Part shown: positions 13,529-35,584 of the stretch, piece after piece
How the letters are laid out: each line of letters begins with the position of its first letter
Numbering within the stretch: the first letter of the stretch is position 1
Origin: Prochlorococcus sp. RS04
Lineage (GTDB): Bacteria > Cyanobacteriota > Cyanobacteriia > PCC-6307 > Cyanobiaceae
Assembly (NCBI RefSeq): GCF_001989455.1
Contig: NZ_CP018346.1
Span: 806,001-870,000, forward strand
DNA length: 64,000 nt
Reading direction: 5' to 3'
Position numbers and translations under genes: made by a program
Notes under the pieces: model-generated
Database searches by the model: none
What the model was told of the DNA's origin: nothing
What the model saw: only the letters and a program-made list of their open reading frames with translations

Positions 13529-14485
13529 ATGATGAATACGATTCAAGACAAAAAAGAAATAAGTAAAAAATTAAAAGAAAGAGCTATTTTTGAAGGTTTT
13601 ACAATTGCCGGAATAGCTTCAATACCAGGTAGTTCGCGCGTAAAATTAAGAACCAATGCATTAGAAAGATGGTTAGCAAATAACTATCATGGTGAAATGA
13701 AATGGATGGAAGCAGAAAAAAGAAAAAATATAGACTCACTTTTTGAGGATGCAAAAAGTGTTTTAAGCGTTGGATTTAATTACATTAATTCACAAAACAA
13801 CAACAATAATTTCCTCAAGGTTGCTAAATTTGGCCAAGGGGATGATTATCATAAAGTAATTCACAAAAAATTAAAGAATATTGGTAAATGGATCAACGTA
13901 GAAATCCCTGATTGCAAATGGAAAATATGTGTTGATACATCTCCACTTCTTGAAAAAGCATGGGCAGAGGAATCAGGTATTGGTTGGATAGGCAAAAATA
14001 GTAATTTAATAAGTAAAAAAAACGGTTCTTGGTTTACTTTGGGTTTTATGCTTCTCACAAAAGATTTAATGCCAGATAAACCTCATCAATCACTTTGTGG
14101 AAAATGTGATCTTTGTATCGAACATTGTCCAACAAAGGCAATCGTAGAACCATTTGTAATACAATCAGATCTTTGCATTGCCTATCACACAATAGAGAGC
14201 AGAAATAAAACTATTCCAAAGAAAATAAAAAAAAATTTAGGTGGCTGGGTTGCAGGATGTGATATTTGTCAAGACGTTTGTCCATGGAATAAATCAGTGG
14301 CATACAACAATAATTCTGAAACTACACCGAAAGAATGGATTAAAAATCTTAATATTGAGTCCCTAGATTGGGACGATAAAACATGGCAAGAAAATCTTAA
14401 AGGAACTACTTTGAAAAGAATTAAACCGTGGATGTGGAAAAGAAACATACAAGCAAATATAGAGAATAATAAAATTAAAATATGA
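13529..14485 (+). CDS. queG: Epoxyqueuosine reductase QueG
   Basis: Cobalamin- and Fe-S-dependent enzyme making queuosine from epoxyqueuosine in tRNA, the last pathway step. The 318-aa protein shows AEESGIGWIGKNSNLI in the B12-binding part and two [4Fe-4S] clusters: CGKCDLCIEHCPTKAI (about residues 190-205) and CDICQDVCPWN (about 246-256). The C-terminus is shorter than in E. coli QueG, lacking the HEAT-repeat extension. The stop overlaps the TPR gene start by 4 bp (ATGA). queC and queE in this window give the earlier steps. Confidence 0.95.
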   Translation: MMNTIQDKKEISKKLKERAIFEGFTIAGIASIPGSSRVKLRTNALERWLANNYHGEMKWMEAEKRKNIDSLFEDAKSVLSVGFNYINSQNNNNNFLKVAKFGQGDDYHKVIHKKLKNIGKWINVEIPDCKWKICVDTSPLLEKAWAEESGIGWIGKNSNLISKKNGSWFTLGFMLLTKDLMPDKPHQSLCGKCDLCIEHCPTKAIVEPFVIQSDLCIAYHTIESRNKTIPKKIKKNLGGWVAGCDICQDVCPWNKSVAYNNNSETTPKEWIKNLNIESLDWDDKTWQENLKGTTLKRIKPWMWKRNIQANIENNKIKI

Positions 14486-22420: not shown

Positions 22421-23578
22421 TTAAGAACGAACCTGCACAGGCATAACTAAATAAGTAAAAGAATTAAGATTATCTTCTGGCACAAAAACGGCTGGAGTAG
22501 TTGCAATATTACACTTTAAAAGTACGTTTTCAGAAGCAATCACTTTTAAACCTTCTAACAGATATCTTACGTTAAATGCAATATCAAAATTTTCTCCAGA
22601 GTAAGAAACAGGTATTGATTCATTTGCATTTCCAATATCTTGAGCATCTGCGCTGATTGAAGCTAAATCTTTATCATCTAATTTAATCTTTACAACACTA
22701 CTTTGCTGATCGGCTAAAACAGCAATTCTTTCTAATGCATCAATTAATTTTTTTGTATTAAAATTTAGAATTTTAGAAAAAGAATCAGGAATTAATTGTG
22801 AATAATTAGGATAAGTACCTTCTAAAGTTCTTGTAGTAATTATTTGATTAGTTGATATAAATACTACTTGTCCTTTGTCATAAAAAAGCTTAATTGAATT
22901 TTCTGAACTTCTCAAAGATACTAATTTTTCAATTTCTCTTAATGATCTAGTTGGGATAGTTACAGATAAATCATCAACATTTGAAGATAAGTTTTCTTTA
23001 TTTTCAATATGTTCTTCATTACCAATTAAAGCAACAGCCAATCTGTGGCCATCTGTAGAAGCAGACTCTAAATAATTTGGTTTGAAAGTAAAATTAACAC
23101 CTGTGAGTAGTTGCTTTGAATCATCATTACTGCTTGCAAAAATAGTGGATTTTAAGGCCTTTAAAAAAGAAATAGGATCAATATTCAAAGAAGTGCCGCT
23201 TTCAACAAATGGTAAATTAGGGTATTCATCAGAGGGTATCCCTTTTAGGTTAAAAGAACCTCTATCACTTTTTATTAGGATATTATCTGAATTCTCCTCT
23301 ACTTCTAGAGAAACAGGAGTTTCATTAGGTAGTTTGTTTACTATTTCTGATAAGAGTTTTGAAGGTATAGTTATAGCTCCACTATTTTTAACAGTTCCAT
23401 CAAAAGAAGTTTGAATTCCTAAATTCAAATCAAATCCTGTGACGCTAATTTTATTAGTGCCTTCATCAGCTGTTAAAAGTATGTTTGCAAGAATTGGATG
23501 CGTTGGCCTTGCAGCAACTGCCTTGCTTACTAGTTGTATAGCATTATTTAGTTCATTTTGATTACAAATAATTTCCAT
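22421..23578 (-). CDS. dnaN: DNA polymerase III beta (sliding clamp) subunit
   Basis: Ring-shaped processivity clamp. The 385-aa protein has three clamp repeats; motifs include VSKAVAARPTHPILANILL, IPSKLLSEIVNKLP, STDGHRLAVA, IPTRSLREIEKLV, and the C-terminal end FVPEDNLNSFTYLVMPVQVR with the typical YLVMPV. dnaA is not adjacent, as in other cyanobacteria of this group. The 335-bp region upstream, back to thrC, holds DnaA-box-like sequences. Confidence 0.98.
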   Translation of the reverse strand: MEIICNQNELNNAIQLVSKAVAARPTHPILANILLTADEGTNKISVTGFDLNLGIQTSFDGTVKNSGAITIPSKLLSEIVNKLPNETPVSLEVEENSDNILIKSDRGSFNLKGIPSDEYPNLPFVESGTSLNIDPISFLKALKSTIFASSNDDSKQLLTGVNFTFKPNYLESASTDGHRLAVALIGNEEHIENKENLSSNVDDLSVTIPTRSLREIEKLVSLRSSENSIKLFYDKGQVVFISTNQIITTRTLEGTYPNYSQLIPDSFSKILNFNTKKLIDALERIAVLADQQSSVVKIKLDDKDLASISADAQDIGNANESIPVSYSGENFDIAFNVRYLLEGLKVIASENVLLKCNIATTPAVFVPEDNLNSFTYLVMPVQVRS

Positions 23579-23702
23579 CAGAATTTGGAACTTTTTACAA
23601 ATACAATATACTTTTTTCGTAAATTAAATTCAATAAATTTATTTTTTACTCTTTTCTAATAAAAAAAATTAATAAAATAAAATCTTTAGTAGTAGTAGTT
23701 CT

Positions 23703-23720
23703 TGTGGAAACTGTGGAATT
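23703..23720 (-). promoter_or_regulatory. Pair of abutting DnaA-box-like sequences
   Basis: TGTGGAAAC and TGTGGAATT lie directly side by side on the + strand, that is two boxes of the TTTCCACA kind on the - strand with the same orientation. The first keeps the exact 8-base core TTTCCACA. They lie about 125 bp upstream of the dnaN start, inside the putative origin. Confidence 0.5.
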
Positions 23721-23884
23721 CTTAAATTAAACATCTTATTTATTTAGTTTATGAAGAAAAGAATATGTGTAAAAAATTTCTTAATTGTTGAATATTTTTT
23801 TCTTTTTTTTAAAATTTTAAATTTATTCAACAAATAGAATTTCTTGTTATATACTTTTCAACAAATGAGGTTTGTTTTTAACTG

Positions 23885-23893
23885 ATTTCCACA
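23885..23893 (+). promoter_or_regulatory. DnaA-box-like sequence near the end of thrC
   Basis: ATTTCCACA has the exact 8-base core TTTCCACA in opposite orientation to the pair at 23703-23720, so the two sites bracket the A/T-rich stretch between them. This is the arrangement expected around an unwinding element, but it has not been tested. Confidence 0.45.
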
Positions 23894-23913
23894 GACACTA
23901 TTTTTTTTGGATT

Positions 23914-25017
23914 TTAATATCCCAAGATTTTAGTTATATTTTTTAATGAAGGTTCTACATTTTTCCTAAAAATAGCATCATTATTTTCTATAGCGCAATT
24001 AGGATCTTTCAATCCATTTCCAGTTAGAACACAAACAATAGTCGATTCTTTTTGAATTCTATTTTTATTTTTAATTAGACCAGCAACAGATGCTGCACTG
24101 GCAGGTTCACAAAAAACCCCCTCTTTGGCGAGTATTTTATAAGCATCGATTATTTCTTCATCTGTAACTGACTGAAAATCTCCTTTACTCTCTTTTCTTA
24201 CTTTTTTTGCTTTTTCTCTATTTACAGGATTCCCAATTCTTATTGCAGTTGCAATTGTTTCTGGATCTTTAACTATTATATTTTTTACTAATGGAGCAGA
24301 GCCTTCGGATTGAAAACCCATCATTATTGGTAATTTCAGATTACTTTTTATTTTTGAATACTCTTTAAATCCCATCCAATAAGCAGTTATATTTCCCGCA
24401 TTACCCATTGGAATGCAAAGCCAATCAGGAGCATGACCTAAGTCATCAAATATTTCAAAAGCTGCCGTTTTTTGTCCTTGTATTCGATATGGATTAACAG
24501 AATTAACAAGTTCTATAGGATGTTCTGAGGATAAATCTCTGACAATTTCAAGAGCCATATCAAAGTTTCCATTAATAGATATTATTTCGGCGCCATACAT
24601 TAATGCTTGAGCAAGCTTTCCTTGTGCAACAAATCCTTCTGGGATTAAAACATAAGGTTTTAATCCTCCTCTTGAAGCATATGCAGCAGCAGCAGCAGAG
24701 GTGTTTCCAGTACTTGCACAAATTACTGCTTCACGGCCTTCTTCTTTTGCTTTGCTAATTGCCATAGTCATACCACGATCTTTAAAAGATCCTGTTGGAT
24801 TAAGGCCATCATATTTTAAAAAAACTTTTGTTCCGTTTCCAATTAAGTTGCTTATTGAATCGCTTAGAATTAGTGGAGTATTTCCTTCATTAAGGGAAAT
24901 AATAGGAGTTTTTTTTGTAACTGGTAGATATTGTTTATAAGCTTCTATTAGACCTGGCCACCTTTTTTTTCTGTAATTAATACGCAGTTTATTTTTGATT
25001 TTATTTAATAACAACAT
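23914..25017 (-). CDS. thrC: Threonine synthase
   Basis: PLP enzyme converting O-phosphohomoserine to threonine. The 367-aa protein is the short ThrC type. The PLP lysine is in [14 protein letters not shown] (about residues 73-86), [14 protein letters not shown] follows, and the phosphate-binding loop is [11 protein letters not shown]. The C-terminal [11 protein letters not shown] is conserved. The ATG at 25017 gives a basic N-terminal lead ([16 protein letters not shown]) usual for cyanobacterial ThrC. It follows the DUF1400 gene by 6 bp. Confidence 0.97.
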
Positions 25018-33957: not shown

Positions 33958-35034
33958 TCAAAGATTGATTTTTAAAACTATACCTAAAATTACGAGTAAA
34001 ATGTTGATTTTCCAAAAATTTTCTACTATTTTTTGTTCTTTCACTCCTTTAAGTTCAAAGTGGTGGTGTAGTGGAGTCATTAAAAAAATGCGTTTACCTC
34101 TATGAAATAATTTTTTTGTAATTTTAAAAAACCCTACTTGAATTATTACTGATAACGATTCAATAATAAATATTCCTGAGAAAATAGATAAGGTAAAAAT
34201 GCTATTGGTTAGTAACGCTATAGAACCCAAAATTGCTCCTATACTTAGAGATCCGGTGTCACCCATAAATATTTTTGCAGGATAACTATTGTACTTTAGA
34301 AAACCTAAGCATATGCCTGACATCGAAAAACATAAGATGCTAAAAACAATAAGTTCTTGTTGTTCTTTCAGTAATATTTCTGTTCCTAATCCATAAAAGA
34401 TAATCCCACTGCATCCAGCCGCTAATCCATCTAGTCCATCAGTCAAATTTACTGAATTACTTATGCCCACTAGTACTAAAAAAGAAACTGGCAATATGAA
34501 AATATTCATATTTATTCCCCAGGAGTCAGAAATTGTTATTAAGGGACTGATTAAATTTTTTTCGTAGGCTAACAATATAAAAATTATTGAGATGACACTT
34601 TGTAAGAATAATTTCTCTTTCGTTTTTAAACCTGTGTTCTCTTTTTTTTTAATGCTTAAAAAATCATCTAAAAAACCTATAACAAAGAAACTAAAAATAT
34701 TAAGTAATAAAAGATTTAATTTTAGAGAACCTAAATTGATAGTTATTATTAAAAGTAAAATTAAAAAAGGGACAATAATAAAAATTCCACCCATGGTTGG
34801 AGTATCGCTTTTTTTAAAGTGATTAGCTGGGCCTTCATTCCTAATATTTTGAAGTAAATTAAATTTTTTGATAATCTTTATACCATTTTTCGTTGTAAAA
34901 ACAGAAATAAAGAAAAATAATATGTAAACTCCTGTAAAAATAAAATTATTAAAAAAATAGGAGGTAATTATTAAAGCAAAAGTAATTAATATAAATAAAG
35001 ATTCAAATTTTAACTTTTTAATCTTCCCAATCAT
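33958..35034 (-). CDS. mraY: Phospho-N-acetylmuramoyl-pentapeptide-transferase MraY
   Basis: Integral membrane enzyme forming lipid I from UDP-MurNAc-pentapeptide and undecaprenyl phosphate. About ten hydrophobic segments span the 358 aa. Family motifs are KSDTPTMGGIFI (about residues 74-85), FLDDFL with the Asp pair, NLTDGLDGLAAG (about 197-208), FMGDTGSLSIGA, and the C-terminal LMTPLHHHFELKG. It overlaps the DUF3134 gene by 17 bp and is not linked to the other mur genes of the window. Confidence 0.97.
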   Translation of the reverse strand: MIGKIKKLKFESLFILITFALIITSYFFNNFIFTGVYILFFFISVFTTKNGIKIIKKFNLLQNIRNEGPANHFKKSDTPTMGGIFIIVPFLILLLIITINLGSLKLNLLLLNIFSFFVIGFLDDFLSIKKKENTGLKTKEKLFLQSVISIIFILLAYEKNLISPLITISDSWGINMNIFILPVSFLVLVGISNSVNLTDGLDGLAAGCSGIIFYGLGTEILLKEQQELIVFSILCFSMSGICLGFLKYNSYPAKIFMGDTGSLSIGAILGSIALLTNSIFTLSIFSGIFIIESLSVIIQVGFFKITKKLFHRGKRIFLMTPLHHHFELKGVKEQKIVENFWKINILLVILGIVLKINL

Positions 35035-35299
35035 CTTCTAATGAAGGATCTTCTTCAGTTTTATAATCTTCCTTTTCCCCCATTAGCGCTGAAAGTTCTT
35101 CTTCCTCAATTGTACTAATCTCTTGGGAATCTCCATCTTTTTCTGCAACGAGTCTACCTGTATTTTCAAGCCAAGATAGTAGATCAGGCTCCTCTCTTAA
35201 TGGCAACACAGGAGCTGGATCATCTCTGTGGTAGCAAGTTAAAGCTGGATTGACTTCAGAAATATCGTCTAATCTAAGTTTTAGTTTGTTTGAATCCAT
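35018..35299 (-). CDS. DUF3134 family small acidic protein
   Basis: A 93-aa protein matching cyanobacterial DUF3134: LDDISEVNPALTCYHRDDPAPVLPLREEPDLLSWLENTGRLVAE, followed by a strongly acidic tail ending EDDWED. Function unknown. It is upstream of mraY with a 17-bp overlap, so the two are likely transcribed together from the 53-bp gap shared with the divergent small membrane protein. Confidence 0.88.
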   Translation of the reverse strand: MDSNKLKLRLDDISEVNPALTCYHRDDPAPVLPLREEPDLLSWLENTGRLVAEKDGDSQEISTIEEEELSALMGEKEDYKTEEDPSLEDDWED

Positions 35300-35352
35300 T
35301 ATATATTATGTTCTATATATAAGATAATACATAATGATGCATACTAAAAACT

Positions 35353-35547
35353 TTGTTTGATAAAGGAAATTTAAAATACTTTTTTATCTGGCTAATTTCA
35401 TTGTTGCTGTCTGGATTATTAAAACTTATTGGATATTTGAATCCCGATGTTTTAATAATTAATAACTTTCTTCTCTTATTACTAGTTTTTGGTCCAGCTC
35501 TTTTAGTTACAATAGTATTAGTTTTTAATAAGTTTTCAAATTCTTAA
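35353..35547 (+). CDS. Small two-helix membrane protein (TTG start)
   Basis: A 64-aa reading frame with two hydrophobic segments (about residues 8-28, YFFIWLISLLLSGLLKLIG, and about 37-58, FLLLLLVFGPALLVTIVLVF) joined by a short NPDV loop. No ATG exists in frame: an in-frame TGA lies at 35335 and TTG at 35353 is the only common start. The position before argG and the clean membrane pattern support a real gene, but no function is recognised and there is no clear Shine-Dalgarno. Confidence 0.6.
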   Translation: MFDKGNLKYFFIWLISLLLSGLLKLIGYLNPDVLIINNFLLLLLVFGPALLVTIVLVFNKFSNS

Positions 35548-35584
35548 TTACGTCAAAAAATTTAAATTTATGGAGCAAATTTAG

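Follow-up and report, generated by a model that had tools for sequence, protein, structure and literature searches.

Locus and flanking genes

The genome of Prochlorococcus sp. RS04 was available as a single contig of 1,656,222 bp, and the window, the whole stretch of DNA analysed, was a piece of 64,000 bp taken from it (bases 806,001-870,000; 68.8% A+T). The region under study was the intergenic gap bounded by the start of dnaN and the stop of thrC, both genes lying on the minus strand (Table 1). In a sequence-only reading of the same DNA this gap had been described as the only one longer than 300 bp; this is correct provided that the 93-aa ORF at 35018-35299 is genuine, failing which the gap at 35035-35584 is longer. 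Searches of the window with Rfam (gathering threshold) and ARAGORN gave zero matches. DnaA is encoded by the genome, with a single PF00308 match at 320,448-320,930, approximately 509 kb from the gap, and dnaA is accordingly not adjacent, as that reading had stated.

According to DoriC, cyanobacterial origins usually adjoin dnaN and carry boxes of the type TTTTCCACA (PMC6323995); the gap, which adjoins dnaN, agrees with this neighbour rule. Prochlorococcus origins were found by GC skew and were validated as lying between the genes for threonine synthase and DNA polymerase III beta, close to DnaA boxes (PMC2836286). The flanking genes, the side, the nearby DnaA boxes and the use of skew as a locator are all shared with the origin described there, and no essential difference from the available part of that description was noted, the trio and the box-by-box anatomy being additional here. 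The location of the origin is already known for the genus and is regarded as ordinary because it has been published for Prochlorococcus. The concern that gene-based origin finders might miss the gap was unfounded, given the dnaN neighbour rule in DoriC (PMC6323995) and the thrC-dnaN origins in print (PMC2836286). The origin of Synechococcus elongatus, given in the sequence-only reading as adjoining dnaN, was placed there experimentally, as cited in PMC7198777.

Table 1. Features of the thrC-dnaN region (positions in the window)
Feature	Position	Strand	Description
thrC-dnaN gap, very probable oriC	23579..23913	.	335 bp, 81.5% A+T; genome positions 829,579-829,913
dnaN, DNA polymerase III beta clamp	22421..23578	-	named from the sequence-only reading and relatives
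thrC, threonine synthase	23914..25017	-	named from the sequence-only reading and PMC2836286
DnaA box A, first of tandem pair	23712..23720	-	AATTCCACA, 2 mismatches
DnaA box B, second of tandem pair	23703..23711	-	GTTTCCACA, 1 mismatch
DnaA box 3	23766..23774	-	TTTTACACA, 1 mismatch
DnaA box 4, weak	23786..23794	-	TATTCAACA, 2 mismatches
DnaA box 5, weak	23824..23832	+	TATTCAACA, 2 mismatches
DnaA box 6	23855..23863	+	TTTTCAACA, 1 mismatch
DnaA box 7	23885..23893	+	ATTTCCACA, 1 mismatch; 6/9 columns invariant in 42 relatives
Spacer AGAA	23699..23702	-	4 nt, 1/4 G+C; eroded relative to the G+C-rich spacer of module-bearing loci in other cyanobacterial families
DnaA-trio, 3'-GAT-5' x4	23687..23698	+	CTACTACTACTA on the minus strand; 3-4 perfect trios in 42/42 relatives
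Probable melting site	23633..23682	.	94.0% A+T, between trio and dnaN; proposed role

DnaA boxes

Box-like sites were counted by pattern matching against TTTTCCACA and compared with dinucleotide shuffles of the gap. Four sites one mismatch from this sequence were found (boxes B, 3, 6 and 7) where 0.23 would be expected; a count of four was reached in 0/2,000 shuffles. With up to two mismatches allowed there were ten sites against 2.93 expected (1/2,000 shuffles). The exact core TTTCCACA occurred twice against 0.013 expected (1/2,000 shuffles), at 23703-23710 (-) and 23886-23893 (+), the two copies being in opposite orientation; exact TTTTCCACA was found nowhere in the gap. Seven of the ten sites with two mismatches or fewer were counted as boxes, following the sequence-only reading, and conservation was measured for those seven; the sites at 23593, 23752 and 23768 were left out of that measure, the last of them overlapping a counted box. 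The seven box-like sites, the four with one mismatch and the two oppositely oriented exact cores claimed in that reading were thereby confirmed.

Outside the gap, 335-bp stretches in the 504 kb sampled (the window and 22 stretches of the genome) held at most three boxes with one mismatch or fewer. Enrichment was absent from the window as a whole (25 matches with one mismatch or fewer against 36 expected) and from the genome, in which 27 exact copies of TTTTCCACA were found against 24 of the reversed control. Since TTTTCCACA is not enriched genome-wide, the evidence lies in the clustering of the boxes, and genome-wide counts of the exact sequence were rejected as an origin locator. Two of the 27 exact copies were located on the same strand at 14096-14104 and 14433-14441, 337 bp apart and within the ORF at 13529-14485; their occurrence there is probably due to chance.

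Putative unwinding module

In the direction of dnaN, box A is followed by the abutting box B (together 23703-23720), the four nucleotides AGAA, and then CTACTACTACTA. In the rule published for finding the basal unwinding system (BUS), a box has no more than two mismatches (its tandem partner no more than four), the spacer does not exceed 16 bp, and three or more trios of the form 3'-NAN-5' are required (PMC8287927). The tandem boxes of the gap are one and two mismatches from TTTTCCACA, the spacer is 4 bp long, and 3'-GAT-5' is repeated four times. The usual G+C richness of the spacer, which is outside the BUS rule, is lacking here (1/4). As judged from its sequence, the putative opening element of the gap matches this known bacterial type. 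The DnaA-trio module, which the sequence-only reading did not contain, is the central part of this probable origin.

When the module was scored, the score at dnaN was at least 27, as against 23 or less in 451 other pieces of the RS04 genome. A strict pattern (CCACA, 2-8 bases, three CTA) was found in 37/61 genus genomes, all listed places being just upstream of dnaN, with positions matched to the dnaN rows by eye; the reversed control of this pattern gave 7 occurrences in total across the genus genomes. Three CTA alone are unremarkable: the sampled part of the genome has further copies at 176, 251 and 1,013 kb.

The segment at 23633-23682 was among the weakest 0.1% of the 50-bp stretches of the window, with six other tracts weaker still. 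The A/T tract between the outer boxes (23775-23854; 87.5% A+T) was considered as a melting site and rejected, being poorer in A+T and stabler than the tract on the trio side. The site of opening is indicated by the trio, which faces the A+T tract toward dnaN; that tract is the likely melting site, and the A/T tract flanked by the exact cores probably is not.

The dnaN neighbour, the DnaA boxes and the trios are common to this gap and to the S. elongatus origin and its BUS, as described in PMC7198777 and PMC8287927; in contrast to S. elongatus, RS04 has degenerate boxes, exact TTTTCCACA being missing from the gap, and its spacer is the A+T-rich AGAA. With the Bacillus subtilis origin (boxes 6/7 and trios, PMC8287927) the gap shares tandem boxes, a short spacer and 3'-GAT-5' trios by the opening site; it differs in that dnaA is not beside the origin and the boxes are of the cyanobacterial type TTTTCCACA.

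Conservation within the genus

Sixty-one genomes of the genus were searched and a dnaN match was found in 47, of which 42 were examined over the complete gap. Left out were L046, L050, L056 and L057, in which the contig starts inside the gap, and G046, with a partial dnaN. In all 42 relatives thrC was upstream and the gap measured 335-357 bp; gene order and the seven box positions were also kept in 42/42, and the conservation proposed as a check in the sequence-only reading was therefore present. The mean modal frequency was 0.933 in box and trio columns and 0.791 in the rest of the gap, with none of 334 mask shifts as high, while the conservation of the five boxes outside the tandem pair was reached by 1/334 shifts; these figures serve as description and not as probability because the relatives are not independent.

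Tandem boxes, four nucleotides and a trio were present in 42/42 gaps, with four perfect trios in 32 and three in 10, and 0-2 of the 4 spacer positions were G or C in every one. The module was also found in 79/79 of the dnaN-closest named loci with enough upstream DNA, drawn from the best 80 of 196 candidates (78 Prochlorococcus and 2 "uncultured Synechococcaceae"; L177 was dropped for its short upstream DNA). The 42- and 79-locus counts are not independent, since the samples overlap; both were scored on a fixed 9-9-4 layout, and free alignment gave the same layout. Several relatives' records open so that dnaN begins at base 139-205. Circular records are customarily opened at the putative origin (PMC7198777), and such starts near dnaN reflect the opinion of the depositors and no measurement.

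Nucleotide skew

The sequence was read continuously at 786-890 kb (104 kb) and sampled over the rest of the genome. Raw GC skew was negative in 9/9 sampled stretches at 200-806 kb and positive in 7/8 at 870-1,428 kb. Within the contiguous part the raw cumulative minimum was located at 870,425, approximately 40 kb from the gap; over the first 40 kb to the right of the gap the raw skew was still slightly negative (-0.018), and the minus strand there holds 23 of 31 long ORFs. Raw skew misleads here because gene orientation dominates the curve. Within the window its minimum falls at the right end, and it was rejected as an origin locator.

The correction consisted in subtracting, for every codon position, the mean skew of the coding strand. 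With gene strand removed in this way, the cumulative skew reached its minimum at 827,976, and a single change point was best placed at 828,151, approximately 1.4-1.9 kb from the gap. The GC-skew check suggested in the sequence-only reading thus came out in favour of the gap for the corrected turn, approximately 1.5 kb away, and against it for the raw local minimum. The residual skew was negative in 7/8 sampled stretches at 200-765 kb and positive in 7/7 at 911-1,428 kb; it was weak, 3 of those 15 stretches (331, 414 and 994 kb) being one standard error or less from zero. In the part that runs from 1,490 kb across position 0 to 186 kb, it differed from zero by no more than about 1.5 standard errors in all five sampled stretches; the terminus may lie within this part. 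A bi-directional linear coverage gradient has been described in wild Prochlorococcus ecotypes (PMC9589681).

Identity of the gap

The box cluster, the corrected skew turn, the conservation in 42/42 relatives and the DnaA-trio beside the tandem boxes support the proposal of the sequence-only reading that this gap is oriC. It is very probably the chromosomal origin of RS04, a Prochlorococcus of the high-light type, with the basal unwinding system as its basis. Points on the other side are the raw skew minimum 40 kb off, the weak residual skew, the missing exact TTTTCCACA, the eroded spacer and the distant dnaA.

The box-like sites might be chance words in A+T-rich DNA, as the composition of the window and the missing window-wide and genome-wide enrichment would allow, but the shuffles of the gap never gave four near-perfect boxes and the sites are conserved in place across 42 relatives; this reading is scarcely credible. 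An origin near but outside the gap, for example at about 870 kb, where the raw cumulative skew of the 786-890 kb segment is lowest, is extremely improbable. That minimum disappears after correction for gene orientation, and neither a four-box cluster nor a box-trio module was found in the stretches sampled there (L012 and the right end of the window), sites beyond the continuously read 786-890 kb being covered by sampling.

It is also very unlikely that the gap is mainly a control region of dnaN, in which box-bound DnaA regulates dnaN transcription while replication starts elsewhere. The dnaN promoter must sit in the gap, which holds promoter-like matches, and some cyanobacteria replicate independently of DnaA and oriC (PMC7198777). 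A promoter, however, needs no trio in fixed register with tandem boxes, as is seen in 42/42 relatives; a control region would leave the corrected skew turn about 1.5 kb away unexplained, and the S. elongatus oriC near dnaN is an experimental one (cited in PMC7198777). The control of dnaN and the role of origin are compatible and can both reside in the gap. A promoter and terminator scan of 23400-24100 gave 7 promoter-like sites, as against 4.1 ± 1.8 in shuffles, and no terminator. One promoter-like sequence, TTGAAT-17-TATATT at 23633-23605 on the minus strand, is situated between the A+T tract and dnaN in a block conserved among closer relatives, and may be the dnaN promoter.

With the gap taken as oriC, the anatomy of the origin is fixed for a very abundant photosynthetic organism, and the base-level positions of the opening element are usable for metagenomic growth estimates and for attempts at replicating vectors.

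DnaA protein and proposed mechanism

The DnaA of this genome could be aligned along its length (residues 6-456; 411 bits) with a DnaA of solved structure, PDB 8btg, which we take to be the B. subtilis protein. The sequence DHTTV, presumably the DnaA motif of that name, is kept in this alignment. By count on the same alignment, it also keeps the residues corresponding to two positions that PMC8287927 names for B. subtilis DnaA, Ile190 in single-strand binding and Arg264 as the arginine finger. Purified DnaA of S. elongatus and of others separates in vitro the strands of scaffolds bearing its own boxes and trios, both being required (PMC8287927).

In the mechanism proposed for the gap, DnaA would bind the boxes in double-stranded form, chiefly at the tandem pair A/B, and a DnaA filament would extend from this pair onto the plus strand along the four 3'-GAT-5' trios, parting the strands. 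Opening would take place in the tract of 94% A+T on the dnaN side of the trio, and helicase would be loaded there. The outer boxes 5-7, which are in opposite orientation, presumably help to gather or order DnaA. DnaA binding, unwinding, helicase loading and firing at the gap are what we infer from this arrangement.

The module in other genera and families

From the remainder of the family outside the genus, 23 of 24 members were aligned (G316 was left out). The module was in register in 22/23 dnaN-upstream regions from these sister genera by free alignment, L134 being unaligned in the module. Of the four trios the first alone was intact in 22/22 aligned loci, and the middle adenine was missing in at least one of the four in 17/22 (16/22 when the fourth trio is disregarded). 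The G+C content of the locus was 0.32-0.34 in the five loci keeping all four adenines and 0.46-0.66 in those losing at least one. Deviant trios, with CGA, CGG or CAA replacing CTA, were observed upstream of dnaN in L087-L090, L092-L095, L097-L101 and L130-L133.

It is quite possible, if somewhat short of probable, that the opening module has drifted in opposite directions among the picocyanobacteria, following the base composition of the genome, with its register unchanged. In Prochlorococcus the G+C of the spacer would be largely gone and three to four perfect trios kept, and the G+C-richer sister genera would retain more of the spacer and have between one and three of the four trios without the middle adenine that is supposed to be conserved (e.g. 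3'-GAT GCT GCC-5'). Should origins with deviant trios prove to fire normally, a requirement for three middle adenines would be too stringent, and a single proximal trio or two might be enough; deviant trios were already suspected by Pelliciari et al. (PMC8287927). A+T-rich Prochlorococcus and its G+C-richer relatives constitute a natural test of which trio positions matter. In a limited literature search neither the Prochlorococcus trio nor the deviant trios of its relatives were found in print; the supplement of PMC8287927 and DoriC entries may list them. The eroded G+C spacer and the adenine loss in sister genera may be mildly new.

Outside the family, 27 loci were examined, one per family, from 284 of 291 genomes with a dnaN match. 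Since 17 of these 27 loci were without the module, it is not universal upstream of dnaN across the phylum. L110, a cyanobacterium belonging to another family, carried two exact tandem copies of TTTTCCACA upstream of dnaN with no trio run after them. The module was present at a score of at least 25 in 9/27 loci, and L122, with a box pitch of 8 bases, was recognized by eye as a tenth. The spacer held 3-4 G or C of 4 in the nine other-family loci with the module; L102, a member of another cyanobacterial family, combines two exact boxes with the spacer GCCC, as against the degenerate boxes and AGAA of RS04.
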